Source: Terasakiella brassicae (lineage in GTDB: Bacteria; Pseudomonadota; Alphaproteobacteria; Rhodospirillales; Terasakiellaceae). From it: 64,000 bases of DNA. Positions 41,396 to 47,202 of the stretch are shown here, one piece after another (positions within the stretch are counted from its first letter, which is position 1; each line of letters opens with the position of its first letter). The position numbers were made by a program, and so were the translations under genes. A model generated the notes under the pieces. That model worked only from the letters and a program-made list of their open reading frames with translations, had not been told where the DNA came from and did no database searches. The DNA lies in the NCBI RefSeq assembly GCF_014641495.1, contig NZ_BMHV01000001.1, positions 62,001-126,000 on the forward strand, in the 5' to 3' direction.

Positions 41396-42049
41396 ATGGA
41401 TTATGCGCTTTCCCGTTCGAATATGATTGAAGGTCAGATAAAAACCAACCGGGTCGCCGACCCTTATGTTTTGGATGCGATGGGTGCGGTTCCCCGTGAG
41501 GTGTTTGTGCCGACATCCAAAAAAGGTGTCGCTTATATTGATGATGCGCTTGAGGTTGGTAACGGGCGTTTTGTTCTGGAACCTATGGTTCTCGCCAGAA
41601 TGCTGGAAACTGCCGAACTGGATGAAAATGATATCGTTCTCGATATTGGATGCAATACCGGATACTCAACGGCTGTTCTGGCCAAGATTGTCAGCATGGT
41701 TGTCGCTATCGAAAGTGATGAAGAACTTGCAACGGCTGCTACAAAAAACTTAAGCCAAATCGGCATTGATAACGCAGTGGTGGTTACCGGTGACATGAAA
41801 GATGGCGTTGAAAAACAGGCGCCTTATAATGTCATTCTTTTTAACGGTGCTATTTCCCAACTGCCGGATTCCATTAAAAATCAATTGGCTGATGGCGGGC
41901 GATTGCTGGTTATCGAACAAGGCAAGGCAACGATGTCCAACGTCTGCGTATATACACGCAATGGCGATATCTTTTCAAAACACGACATTATGGAAGCGGG
42001 CGTAGCGACTTTGCCGGGCTTTGAGAAAGAATCGGCTTTTACTTTTTAA
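41396..42049 (+). CDS. PCMT-like SAM-dependent methyltransferase upstream of tolC
   Basis: This 217-aa protein has the fold of protein-L-isoaspartate O-methyltransferase. It starts DYALSRSNMIEGQIKTNRV and has the SAM loop VLDIGCNTGYSTA near residues 81-93 and an acidic VVAIESDEEL segment that would bind the ribose. The region that in true Pcm reads GxxQT[IL]SxP is VGNGRFVLEP here (about 51-60), so the active-site Thr/Ser motif is lost. A genuine pcm gene with this motif is at 53.0 kb. A PCMT-like gene directly before tolC is a familiar alphaproteobacterial arrangement. The reaction is therefore unknown and may not be isoaspartate repair. The ribosome-binding site is weak. Confidence 0.8.
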   Translation: MDYALSRSNMIEGQIKTNRVADPYVLDAMGAVPREVFVPTSKKGVAYIDDALEVGNGRFVLEPMVLARMLETAELDENDIVLDIGCNTGYSTAVLAKIVSMVVAIESDEELATAATKNLSQIGIDNAVVVTGDMKDGVEKQAPYNVILFNGAISQLPDSIKNQLADGGRLLVIEQGKATMSNVCVYTRNGDIFSKHDIMEAGVATLPGFEKESAFTF

Positions 42050-42110: not shown

Positions 42111-42290
42111 GAAAAAAAGATTTATCTATATGTGAGGTAATTCACTTTTTTAGCCTTGTAATCGGTTGTAAAGAATTAGTTTAGATAATTCTGTTAAAAA
42201 ACATTAATTTACAAGTGTCTGAATCCTTTGCCTTTCATGTTGCAGATGGTTAGACTGTGCGAAACTTATATAAGTGTTATGGGTAATAAA

Positions 42291-43673
42291 ATGAACCTGA
42301 GAAAAAACTTTCTAATCGGCGTTGCCTTGAGCGCGATGGCTTTTAGTTCGCAAGCGAATGCCGAAACTCTTAGAGAGGCCCTCGTTAAAGCCTATATGAA
42401 TAATCCCGCGCTGAATTCTGAACGGGCAACTGTACGCGCAACAGACGAAGGCGTTTCTCAGGCGTTAGCCAATTGGCGCCCGGAAGTAACTTGGACGGGG
42501 ACCGTTGCCAAGGAACGTAATGACAATAATTCGCGCTCGGGTTCAAATCGGGAGCAAACGCTCACCCCGATGACCAGTTCTTTCTCTGTAACCCAGCCTT
42601 TATTCCGTGGTTTCCAGACCGAAGCGGCCACGGCGGAAGCCGAGTCAAAAGTGGATGCTGCGCGCGCCCGCTTGCTGGAAAAAGAACAAGAAGTTCTGAT
42701 GGATGCGGTTTTGGCCTATTCTAATATTGTACGCGATGAAGCCGTTCTTGAACTCAATCGTAATAACGAACAGGTTTTGCGCCGCCAGTTTGAAGCAACA
42801 AATGATCGTTTTGAAGTCGGGGAGCTTACCCGGACGGATGTCAGTCAGGCAGAAGCGCGTTTTGCAAAAGCAACCGCTGATCGGATCCAATCCGAAGGGG
42901 ATCTCGAATCGTCCCGGGCGACCTATCAAAGAGTCATTGGTGAAATTCCGACTAAACCGATTCCCTCTCCTTTGCCGAGTGATATCCCAACAACAGTGGA
43001 AGAAGTGATCGAACGGGCACAGCAGAACAACCCGACTTTTCTGGCGGCTGTTGCGGATGAAAAAGCAGCAATGGAGAATATCGAGGAAATGGCAGGTAAG
43101 TTATTGCCGGAATTAAACCTAACCGCATCTACGGATACGGCACTTGAATCATCTTCGCGAAACAGCCGGACCGAGTCGGCAAGCATTGGTCTGTCCTTGA
43201 AAGTTCCGTTCTATCAAAAAGGGACGGTATATTCTCAAGTTCGCGAAGCTAAGCAAACCGCCGCCGAAAAACGCATGGATATGGAAGAAGCCCGTCGCAG
43301 TGCTGTGGAAAGTGGTCGGACAGGTTGGGAAGGGCTCGTCACCGCAAGAGCGCGTATCCAGTCTTTCTTGGCACAAATTCGCTCTGCTGAAGTGGCATTG
43401 GATGGGGTGCAACGTGAGGCCGCTGTCGGTTCACGTACCGTTCTTGATGTCCTTGATGCCGAACAAGAATTGTTGGATGCTAAAGTAAGCTTGGTACGGG
43501 CACAACGTGATGAACTGGTTGCCGTTTATGAATTAAAGCAGGCTGTCGGTGAATTGACAGCGGAAAAACTAGGGCTGGACACCGGGATTTATGACCCGAA
43601 AGTCCATTATGATGAAGTTCGCGATGCATGGATCGGCACATCGTCTGTCGGCGATGTTGACGAAAAAGAATAA
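42291..43673 (+). CDS. tolC: Outer-membrane channel protein TolC
   Basis: TolC forms a trimeric channel across the outer membrane and periplasm for efflux pumps and type I secretion. I start at the ATG at 42291, which places a normal signal peptide at the N-terminus (MNLRKNFLIGVALSAMAFSS, cut after ANA); the frame is open to 42228. The mature part begins ETLREALVKAYMNNPALNSER, typical of alphaproteobacterial TolC, and has two OEP repeats, with LFRGFQT near 106, DVLDAEQELLDAK near 384 and a C-terminal helix. Length is 460 aa. It follows the PCMT-like gene after a terminator. Confidence 0.93.
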   Translation: MNLRKNFLIGVALSAMAFSSQANAETLREALVKAYMNNPALNSERATVRATDEGVSQALANWRPEVTWTGTVAKERNDNNSRSGSNREQTLTPMTSSFSVTQPLFRGFQTEAATAEAESKVDAARARLLEKEQEVLMDAVLAYSNIVRDEAVLELNRNNEQVLRRQFEATNDRFEVGELTRTDVSQAEARFAKATADRIQSEGDLESSRATYQRVIGEIPTKPIPSPLPSDIPTTVEEVIERAQQNNPTFLAAVADEKAAMENIEEMAGKLLPELNLTASTDTALESSSRNSRTESASIGLSLKVPFYQKGTVYSQVREAKQTAAEKRMDMEEARRSAVESGRTGWEGLVTARARIQSFLAQIRSAEVALDGVQREAAVGSRTVLDVLDAEQELLDAKVSLVRAQRDELVAVYELKQAVGELTAEKLGLDTGIYDPKVHYDEVRDAWIGTSSVGDVDEKE

Positions 43674-43770: not shown

Positions 43771-44460
43771 ATGAGTGACGAAAATACAGAAGCAGGTGAC
43801 GGCGCAGAGCCGTCGATGGAGGATATTCTAGCCTCTATCCGGCGTATTCTTTCTGAGGATGATGAAGAAGGTGCCGAGGCTGCTCCGAGTGAAGAAGCAA
43901 CACCCGAACCGGAACCAATGCCTGAGCCGGAACCAGAGCCAATGCCTGAGCCTGAGCCTGAGCCGGAACCAATGCCTGAACCCGAACCGGAACCAATGCC
44001 GGAACCAGAGCCGGAACCAATGCCTGAGCCCGAGCCGGAACCCGTGATTGAATTGGAAGACCCCGAACCAATCATTGAAGAGATTGAAGAAATCGATATC
44101 GATGATGATATCCTAGATTTAACATCTGATATGATGATTGAGGAAGAAGAACCAGAGCCGGAACCGGAACCTGTTTTTGAACCACAACCCATTTTGGCAT
44201 CCGATGTTGCCAATCGGATTGTTTCTCCACCGACGGCTGATGCATCGACTGATGTTTTGTCAGAACTGGCAAAAGCAATTTTGGATCAACGCGATATTGC
44301 AGTTGGGACACGCGATATTACGCTGGAAGGCTTGACCCGGGAAATGTTGCGGCCCTTGCTGAAAGAATGGCTGGATCGCAATTTGCCTTACTTGATTGAA
44401 CGATTGGTCAAAAAAGAAATCGATATTATGATTAACCGCGCGGAACGTCTGGAAGACTAA
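43771..44460 (+). CDS. popZ: Polar organizing protein PopZ (DUF2497)
   Basis: PopZ forms polymeric scaffolds at the cell pole, anchors the centromere through ParB and recruits regulators. The 229-aa protein has the family N-terminus with [19 protein letters not shown] (about 13-31), a long acidic, proline-rich spacer (about 45-135), and a helical oligomerisation end with [20 protein letters not shown] and [14 protein letters not shown] (about 190-226). The spacer is mainly [12 protein letters not shown] repeats encoded by a degenerate tandem DNA repeat. Its location just before valS matches the Caulobacter arrangement. In that organism the spacer is disordered and sets how fluid the condensate is, so the repeat length could matter. 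Confidence 0.93.
43903..44043 (+). repeat. Tandem coding repeat inside popZ (Pro-Glu, with periodic Met)
   Basis: Units of the kind CC(G/A)GA(A/G)CC(G/A)GAACCAATGCCTGAG recur about five times, coding PEPEP with a Met-Pro every eight to ten residues. Such repeats change copy number easily by slippage or recombination without breaking the frame. Confidence 0.85.
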
Positions 44461-44487: not shown

Positions 44488-44513
44488 CGCCCGGGCTTGT
44501 CCTCGGGCGTTTT
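44488..44513 (+). terminator. Terminator between popZ and valS
   Basis: CGCCCG at 44488 pairs with CGGGCG at 44504 and is followed by TTTT. valS starts about 50 bases later with its own AGAGG ribosome-binding site. Confidence 0.75.
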
Positions 44514-44565
44514 CGCGTTTATTAAAGCTATAAATTTTCATTTAGATAAGAGGCTGTGTCTTAAA

Positions 44566-47202
44566 ATGCTCGACAAGACATTCAACCCGGCGGCAGTTGA
44601 AGAAAAACACTATACGCTTTGGGAAGAGAAAAATGCATTTGCCGCCAATCACGAAGCTGGCAAAGAACCCTATACAATTATGATGCCGCCGCCCAATGTG
44701 ACAGGTAGCTTGCATATGGGACACGCCCTGACATTTACTTTGCAGGATATCCTGATCCGCTATAACCGGATGAAGGGTAAAGATGCTCTGTGGCAGCCCG
44801 GAACCGACCATGCGGGGATCGCTACACAAATGGTTGTGGAACGCCGTTTAGAAGCCGAAGGTGTGACCCGCCATGATTTGGGGCGCGACAAATTTATTGA
44901 TAAAATTTGGGAATGGAAAGCGCAATCAGGTGGGACAATTGTTAATCAATTGCGCCGCCTTGGTGCCTCTGCCGATTGGGCGAAAGAACGCTTTACAATG
45001 GATGAAGGTTTGTCCGAAGCTGTCCGTAAAGTCTTCGTCGAACTTTATAAACAAGACCTGATTTATCGCGATAAAAAACTCGTCAACTGGGACCCGAAAC
45101 TGCATACCGCAATTTCAGATCTGGAAGTGGAACAACGCGAAGTCAACGGTAAAATGTGGTACTTCAACTACCCGCTGGAAGGCGAGGACGGTAAATTTGT
45201 TACCGTTGGGACCACACGCCCGGAAACCATGCTCGGTGATACGGGCGTTGCGGTTCATCCCGATGATGAGCGTTATAAAGATTTGATTGGTAGAAATGTT
45301 ATTTTGCCGATCGTAAATCGTGCAATCCCGATTGTTGCCGATGAATATGCTGATCCTGAAAAAGGCTCGGGGGCTGTAAAAATTACACCGGGTCACGATT
45401 TTAATGACTACGAAGTTGGTAAACGCTGCAATCTGGAAATTATCAACGTTCTGGATCTTAACGCACATTTAAATGAAAATGTGCCTGAAAAATATCAAGG
45501 TATGGATCGCTTCGAAGCCCGTACAAAAGTTGTCGCCGAAATGGAAGAACTCGGCCTTTTGGTGAAGATCGAAGAAAACCCGATGACGGTTCCTTATGGG
45601 GATCGTTCCGGGGTTGTGATCGAACCCTGGTTGACAGACCAATGGTTTGTAAAAGCCGATGTTTTGGCAAAACCAGCCTTGGAAGCGGTCGAAACCGGCA
45701 AGACCCGGTTTGTTCCCAAACAATGGGAAAATACCTATTATGAATGGATGCGCAACATCCAGCCTTGGTGTATTTCCCGTCAAATCTGGTGGGGGCATCA
45801 AATCCCGGCATGGTTTGACGAGGATGGCAATGTCTATGTTGAAATGACCGAAGAGGCTGCGCAGAAAGCAGCAGGCGAGGGTGTTAAGCTGACCCGTGAA
45901 ACCGATGTGCTTGATACTTGGTTCTCTTCTGCACTTTGGCCGTTCTCTACATTGGGCTGGCCGGAAAAAACACCGCAGCTCGATCATTATTATACAACGG
46001 ATGTTCTGGTCACCGGGTTTGATATCATTTTCTTCTGGGTTGCCCGGATGATGATGATGGGCATTCATTTCATGGGCGAAGTTCCGTTCAAGGACATCTA
46101 TATTCATGCACTTGTTCGCGATGAACAAGGGGCGAAAATGTCCAAATCCAAAGGGAACGTTATTGATCCGTTAGAATTGATTGATCAATACGGCGCGGAT
46201 GCCATGCGCTTTACACTGACCGCAATGGCTGCACAGGGGCGTGATATCAAACTTGCCACCAGCCGTGTCGAAGGATACCGCAATTTTGCAACAAAGCTTT
46301 GGAATGCGGCCCGTTTCTGTCAAATAAACGGGTGTAAACCGGTTAAAGGACTTGATGCGGCCAGTGTTAAGCACCCCGTTAACCGTTGGATTGTTGGCAA
46401 GGTTGGCGAGGTCGCTGGCGAAGTTGGCACAGCAATTGACGGCTATCGTTTCAACGAGTCGGCCAATGCGATTTATGGATTTGCCTGGGGCACATTCTGT
46501 GACTGGTATCTGGAATTCACCAAACCCATCTTAAATGGCGATGACGAAAGCGCGATTGAAGAAACGCGGGCCACAACCGCATGGGTTTTTGATCAAATTC
46601 TCCATATTCTGCATCCGATGATGCCGTTTATTACAGAGGAACTGTGGGAATCGATGGCTGATGAGCGCGATATGCAGTTGATCAGTGCCGCATGGCCGGA
46701 AAAATTGTTAGATGATAGCGATGCCAACGAGGAAATGGATTGGCTGGTTCAACTGATTTCTACAATCCGTACAACGCGTTCGGAATTGAATGTGCCCGGC
46801 AGTGTCGCCCTTTCTGTATATCTGCAAGGTGCCAATGAAAAGACGGCCCAACGTTTGGTGCGCAATGAAAACCTGATCAAACGCATGGCCCGCCTCGGAT
46901 CGATTAATCTGGTTGATGAAGCCGTTGCACACGGCTGTGTTCAGGAAGTCGTGGGCGAATCTACTGTCTTTATCAATGTGGTTGATCATATGGATGTGGC
47001 GGCGGAAAAAGCCCGTTTGGAAAAAGAAATCGCCAATCTGGATAAAATCATCGGTGGCAAAGAAAAGAAACTCGCAAACGAAAAATTTGTTGCCAATGCA
47101 CCGGCTGATGTTGTTGCAACAGAACGTCAAAAAGTCCAAGAACTCAGCGAGAAAAATGCTAAGTTCAAAGAAGCCTTGGCACGTTTGACATCGGCACTTT
47201 AA
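44566..47202 (+). CDS. valS: Valyl-tRNA synthetase ValS
   Basis: ValS charges tRNA-Val with valine and edits threonine. From the ATG at 44566 (AGAGG upstream) it is 878 aa. It has the class I motifs [14 protein letters not shown] near residues 42-55 (HMGH form of HIGH) and [12 protein letters not shown] near 525-536. The editing domain lies between ([15 protein letters not shown]), the anticodon-binding domain follows, and the C-terminal coiled-coil arm closes it ([20 protein letters not shown] near 808). An upstream ATG at 44497 has no support. A terminator follows. Confidence 0.97.

Follow-up and report, generated by a model that had tools for sequence, protein, structure and literature searches.

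The gene lying directly upstream of tolC in the window (the whole 64,000-nt stretch of Terasakiella DNA that was analysed) is probably an orthologue of CI-PIMT of Paracoccus denitrificans, i.e. a former isoaspartate methyltransferase which has given up catalysis and now serves complex I as an accessory subunit. This reading is based on the loss of the substrate motif, on orthology seen in the sequence, the tree and the predicted fold, on the finding of complex I genes in this genome too and on the co-occurrence of the two across genomes. The label of a repair enzyme is most likely wrong for this gene, because the residues which grip the substrate are lost and the nearest protein of known structure belongs to complex I. 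The probable misannotation as a protein repair enzyme (for example in the S. meliloti record) concerns a gene found in 267 of the 320 sampled alphaproteobacterial genomes, and the CI-PIMT reading gives this gene a testable respiratory role.

CI-PIMT is chain t in the 2.3-Å structure of P. denitrificans complex I (8QBY), and its position and state are described in the passages of PMC11522691 on which we rely throughout. It attaches to NDUFS3 via a basic patch, and the TMH1-2 loop of ND3 and the N-terminus of NDUFS2 lie under it in contact. The canonical Thr60/Ser62 are replaced by Val/Leu and Asp134/Gly135 of the SAM site by Ala/Leu; the cofactor site is obstructed by Arg59 and cofactor density is absent, and the access of substrate to the active site is blocked. 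Its authors propose that CI-PIMT stabilises the closed state of complex I, and their Discussion describes the PIMT subunit as specific, to date, to the Paracoccus enzyme and places its incorporation later than the endosymbiotic event. RPA2580 of Rhodopseudomonas palustris is described in the same passages as catalytically inactive, with features similar to CI-PIMT. The motif loss of the CI-PIMT family is already published in this work (PMC11522691). In an earlier purification of P. denitrificans complex I the protein was present but unassigned, according to the part of PMC8115037 consulted, and the RPA2580 deletion strain shows wild-type growth rates and poor survival in growth arrest in the corresponding part of PMC5705917. 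Among the literature matches listed, with subscription literature outside the search, CI-PIMT was named in PMC11522691 alone, and one search on an isoaspartate O-methyltransferase with tolC in alphaproteobacteria found no paper.

Active-site motifs of the tolC-linked protein

The product of the tolC-linked frame matched PF01135 with 139.7 bits (cut-off 20.3) and scored below the cut-offs of both NCBIfam equivalogs, i.e. TIGR00080 (145.9 vs 159.05) and NF001453 (145.6 vs 188). A complete pcm gene at 53.0 kb, as claimed in the initial annotation, was confirmed (Table 1); its product likewise scores as PF01135 and reached 258 bits with NF001453 and 224 bits with TIGR00080. The two products share 30% identity over 198 aligned columns. 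The genes adjoining this pcm are presumably surE-like and nlpD-like. In the whole genome, two PCMT matches span most of the domain and three are partial.

Table 1. Coordinates of the tolC-linked gene, its motifs and the related or neighbouring genes in the window
Feature	Position	Strand	Basis or remark
PCMT-fold protein of the CI-PIMT type (217 aa, ATG start), proposed to be an accessory subunit of complex I	41396..42049	+	PF01135; best PDB relative 8qby_t
GRFVLEP (residues 57-63) at the site of the QT[IL]SxP substrate motif	41564..41584	+	Alignments
Motif I (SAM loop), residues 79-91, DIVLDIGCNTGYS	41630..41668	+	Intact, though decayed in some orthologues
Motif II site, residues 132-134, with GDM instead of canonical GDG	41789..41797	+	Alignments
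C-terminal F-x-F, residues 215-217, family mark	42038..42046	+	Alignment of 174 member and 34 canonical rows
TolC-family outer membrane protein (assumed name), next downstream	42228..43673	+	S. meliloti annotation of the same gene order
PopZ-like protein (assumed name) in the conserved neighbourhood	43771..44460	+	
Valine--tRNA ligase (assumed name)	44497..47202	+	Same order annotated in S. meliloti; listed from TTG
Canonical Pcm with NQTLSQP, likely repair enzyme of the genome	53028..53663	-	Both NF001453 and TIGR00080 passed

In the alignment with the window's own Pcm, residues G-R-F-V-L-E-P of the tolC-linked protein fall opposite N-Q-T-L-S-Q-P, with Phe59 and Leu61 in place of the Thr/Ser substrate pair, and the motif loss claimed initially is borne out. 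A QTIS-like motif at a shifted position was looked for in the aligned region and is ruled out, since Leu occupies the aligned column and no displaced T-x-S is found there. The SAM loop had been called intact, which holds for motif I (DIGCNTGY) and for E106, which is also retained. The remainder of the cofactor site departs from this description: at motif II Asp133 is retained and Met134 stands where the canonical enzyme has Gly, and R58 occupies the position of the obstructing Arg59 of P. denitrificans CI-PIMT.

In the family alignment the hydroxyl pair was present in 0 of 174 member rows and in all 34 canonical rows, a count which is partly circular because the rows had been sorted into members and canonical enzymes by motif pattern. 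The split holds up, since a tree made without the motif label (FastTree; several long branches flagged) puts the two classes on either side of one branch, with a support of 98 for the 174 member rows and 99 for 175 rows when the Paracoccus sequence was included. Phe at position 215, which is independent of the motif sorting, was found in 165 of the 174 member rows and in none of the 34 canonical ones. Among 97 orthologue rows the Ser position holds Met in 36, Leu in 31 and Ser in 2, position 58 is Arg in 90 (canonical rows have Gln, 8/8), the motif II Asp is retained in 14 and the Gly position of this motif is Leu in 63. Whether the substitution is common to all tolC-linked homologues had been posed as a question, and an intact pair was seen at none of the 81 alphaproteobacterial and 19 other tolC-adjacent loci, which had been collected with the family's own profile.

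A residual repair enzyme with a rearranged active site is a very remote prospect for the present gene. Such an enzyme would share the fold and motif I of Pcm, as this protein does, but the pair is missing from every motif-sorted member row, a canonical Pcm is encoded about 11 kb away, and RPA2580 with the same two replacements is stated to be inactive (PMC11522691, passages cited). The lost pair, the two missed equivalogs and the inactivity of this similar protein give good support to the initial view that isoaspartate is unlikely to be repaired here.

Some departures from the family pattern were also observed. In family f82 (L149, L150, L045, L048, L423) a member is retained and the otherwise nearly fixed Arg58 is gone; NuoD and NuoH are divergent and the NDUFA12 match is absent, and G110 has a cluster of NuoC, NuoD and NuoG frames. 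A split reading frame or one stop lies within the match in L173 (G357), G076:C1:2311154-2311795 and G174:C1:1022282-1022911. In L206 (Paraburkholderia sprentiae) and L288 (G547) the PCMT domain lies at the start of longer proteins (about 670 aa) which form a fused lineage of their own, and the L288 protein reads QTISQP.

Relationship to the Paracoccus complex I subunit

The best PDB match by sequence was 8qby_t (E 3.6e-41), and the family profile matched this chain nearly end to end with 245 bits, followed by V. cholerae Pcm with 146 bits. The AF2 model of the protein (mean pLDDT 95.1) superposed on 8qby_t with a TM of 0.96. This chain was also the closest fold (Z 37.0, rmsd 1.4, 216 aligned), the next entry having Z 32.3 and E. 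coli 3LBF Z 31.6. Both the fold and the family profile place 8qby_t as the closest relative over the full length, C-terminus included. In the tree the Paracoccus chain (178 residues) falls among the alphaproteobacterial members beside L179, a locus which has TolC alongside. Among the 19 distinct PDB sequences matched by the family profile (E up to 1e-6), no eukaryotic complex I chain was found by name.

The Terasakiella protein and P. denitrificans CI-PIMT (8QBY; A1B5L6) are alike in full-length homology and fold, in the lost Thr/Ser pair, in Leu at the place of the substrate-site Ser and in Arg at the cofactor-blocking position. They differ in much of their sequence (35-36% identity), in the replacement of the Thr (Phe in Terasakiella, Val in Paracoccus) and in the motif II Asp, which is retained in the former whereas it is Ala in the latter. 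Binding to complex I was seen for the Paracoccus protein, whereas the Terasakiella protein is known from its sequence and predicted fold. RPA2580, annotated as a PIMT, shares with Terasakiella the Phe and Leu replacements of the substrate pair; its motif II Asp/Gly is Glu/Ala in place of the Asp/Met of Terasakiella, and the cited passages of PMC11522691 assign it no place in complex I. Canonical Pcm/PIMT (EC 2.1.1.77; E. coli 3LBF and the 53-kb gene of the window) shares the PCMT fold and motif I at 28-30% identity, but the Terasakiella protein is without T-x-S, carries the C-terminal F-x-F and lies under the equivalog cut-offs. By analogy with Paracoccus, the protein would bind complex I in Terasakiella and, once bound, would probably help to hold the complex in its working shape or closed state, as the Paracoccus authors propose for their protein.

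Co-occurrence with complex I

At the order level an orthologue was found in 53 of 60 genomes, that of the window included (at least 142 bits; other listed matches had at most 108 bits). The orthologue of another Terasakiella genome (G002) is 73% identical to the 217-aa protein, and the window's own genome has matches to NuoD and NDUFA12. In a class-wide sample of 320 alphaproteobacterial genomes of at least 95% completeness, a member was carried by 265 of the 288 genomes with complex I and by 2 of the 31 without detected complex I (G325 and G285), for which Fisher p-values exaggerate the evidence since the sampled genomes share ancestry. Genomes up to 2.0 Mb were taken as a separate size class to temper genome reduction, and here the member was present in 52 of 72 genomes with complex I vs 1 of 30 without it; 20 of the 23 complex I genomes without a member are also at most 2.0 Mb. 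The CI-PIMT family is general in the sampled Alphaproteobacteria and tracks complex I, which is new with respect to the published wording.

For this tally 247 members were accepted by profile score alone (best E no higher than 1e-40), the sequence was read in all 25 genomes whose best E ranged from 1e-40 to 1e-15 (20 members, 5 canonical only), and 48 genomes had no match or a match near 1e-4. Assignment was by exclusion for 19 of the 39 genomes without a match and for 11 of the 31 without NuoD. For G228 a partial NuoD match together with NDUFA12 was counted as complex I, G285 and G369 were scored as without it despite NDUFA12, and G046 was excluded as ambiguous.

G325 (L161/L424; 1.7 Mb, 99% complete), in which a member is linked to tolC and NuoD and NuoH are both missing, is a real exception to the complex I link and the clearest one. 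The other carrier, G285, may reflect an assembly gap, as suggested by its NDUFA12, and a gap is also possible in G369, where NDUFA12 is present and NuoD, NuoH and the member are absent. Within family f48, G244 is without NuoD, NuoH, NDUFA12 and member, and four other genomes (G076, G174, G304, G359) retain NuoD, NDUFA12 and the member. Very divergent members with no tolC nearby were seen in G102 and G136.

A complex I assembly factor or chaperone, as opposed to a permanent subunit, would be expected to show the same co-occurrence, and mitochondria have methyltransferase-fold assembly factors. This explanation is nevertheless improbable, as the Paracoccus protein is part of the solved 2.3-Å complex (PMC11522691, passages cited).

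Outside Alphaproteobacteria, 122 of 168 sampled genomes were evaluated with a profile that included the Neisseria member. Full-length members occur in many of them, with motifs such as GQVMLAP, NQEMLSP and SRRCLTP; the motif was read in 73 of the 74 carriers and G574 was placed by match coverage. NuoD is unfused in all 74 carriers, its frame being too short for NuoC or shown to be without it. These frames have 391-489 aa except for four longer ones (G390, G397, G513, G558), of which the extra part is not NuoC according to Pfam in three cases and to the start sequence in one. Among the 48 non-carriers (motif read in G526, G428, G580, G413, G438, G547 and G488, the others called by match coverage), 21 have frames of NuoCD length (588-647 aa), 24 have no NuoD over the cut-off and the other 3 have it unfused, each of these being an f200 genome of 1.7-2.1 Mb. 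The fusion was confirmed in all eight long frames examined, one per family, by the presence of both the 30-kDa and the 49-kDa domain, two of these frames (G541, G499) being from genomes outside the 122 and the other fusion calls resting on frame length. Since the NDUFS2 N-terminus touches the PIMT in Paracoccus, a fusion of NuoC to NuoD would plausibly remove or occupy the binding site. This pattern may rest on one or very few events.

SAM-site decay, gene neighbourhood and proposed role

Decay of the SAM site was found in several alphaproteobacterial orthologues. In four f40 genomes (G168, G238, G298, G354; loci L151-L154) tolC has beside it a frame of 217-231 aa in which the profile recognises two stretches only, at about residues 3-113 and 135-217, and leaves the SAM-site middle without a match. 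In three f76 genomes (G104, G260, G319; loci L164-L166) motif I is shortened (ALAIAAPYAA and similar), with ValS nearby in all three and TolC in two. NuoD and NDUFA12 are present in all seven genomes. Another tolC- or valS-linked orthologue with a decayed or residue-losing SAM region is L172 (G155). The 74 non-alphaproteobacterial alignment rows, which include Neisseria and exclude G574 and so are not the 74 carrier genomes, have Gly at 85 and 89 of motif I without exception, Gly at 134 in 23 rows and Gln instead of Arg at position 58 in 38. Decayed loops in Alphaproteobacteria together with Gly85/Gly89 kept elsewhere fit an order in which substrate binding was lost first and SAM binding later, within Alphaproteobacteria; we infer this order from the alignments. 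As the non-alphaproteobacterial members keep motif I and often Gln58, they need not share the complex I function, and with more of the SAM motifs retained they may differ in function.

The gene order is also conserved. A tolC gene comes next downstream on the same strand at 81 of 94 alphaproteobacterial and 19 of 38 other loci, and PopZ-like and ValS matches often follow. None was found next door at 13 and 19 loci, respectively, the latter figure being overstated since alphaproteobacterial sequences were the source of the TolC profile and the contigs of L255, L269 and L285 end soon after the gene; at L152 TolC was found by tblastn and missed in the adjacency count. The S. meliloti Ak57 annotation lists PIMT, TolC and valine--tRNA ligase in this order. 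In the window, the names of these neighbours are our assumption, partly so for the TolC-family protein, and we take the next two frames to encode a PopZ-like protein and valine--tRNA ligase; the true start of the last is probably a little downstream of the listed TTG. A rhodanese gene follows the member in G325 (L424, by Pfam) and seems to follow the Neisseria member as well (by reading).

Motif I and E106 of the 217-aa protein, the glycines kept outside Alphaproteobacteria and the frequent tolC adjacency would all suit a SAM-dependent methyltransferase that is still active but on a different substrate, e.g. a carboxylate or a protein of the adjoining envelope export system. We regard this as unlikely, as Arg58, of which the counterpart obstructs the Paracoccus cofactor site (PMC11522691, passages cited), is present in 88 of the 100 alphaproteobacterial rows of the larger alignment, orthologues with decayed SAM loops are retained, and members exist which have no adjoining tolC. 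The initial annotation had suggested that the protein methylates something else or acts as a SAM-binding scaffold. Neither is the best reading, since the nearest solved relative belongs to complex I and shows no cofactor density; the notion of a scaffold survives in spirit, but it is doubtful that SAM is bound, and complex I, not TolC, is the likely client.

TolC was considered as a partner on the strength of the adjacency and was set aside, as 13 of the 94 alphaproteobacterial loci have members without it; it is a conserved neighbour and not evidently a partner. A role in complex I leaves the conserved tolC neighbourhood unaccounted for.

The wide distribution of the family questions the description of the subunit as Paracoccus-specific and post-endosymbiotic in the cited passages of PMC11522691. 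A broader joint reading can be put forward tentatively, its chance falling somewhat short of even. CI-PIMT would be an ancient complex I accessory subunit which is general among Alphaproteobacteria and may go back to an ancestor shared with the other Pseudomonadota lineages of unfused NuoD; it would be older than mitochondria, which would have lost it. It would require a free NuoD N-terminus and so be absent where NuoCD is fused, the growth-arrest defect of the RPA2580 mutant would be a defect of resting complex I, and the non-alphaproteobacterial forms would record an earlier, SAM-binding stage. The CI-PIMT reading of the tolC-linked gene would explain a bacterial longevity gene (RPA2580) in concrete terms and makes the gene a genetic handle on how the resting state of complex I is set.

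A plasmid origin was also considered; the best 15 of 385 plasmid records with a match include six of 2.1-4.6 Mb. NZ_CP119140.1 and NZ_CP119142.1, both of Neisseria gonorrhoeae and about 2.17 Mb, are of chromosome size and filed among plasmids.
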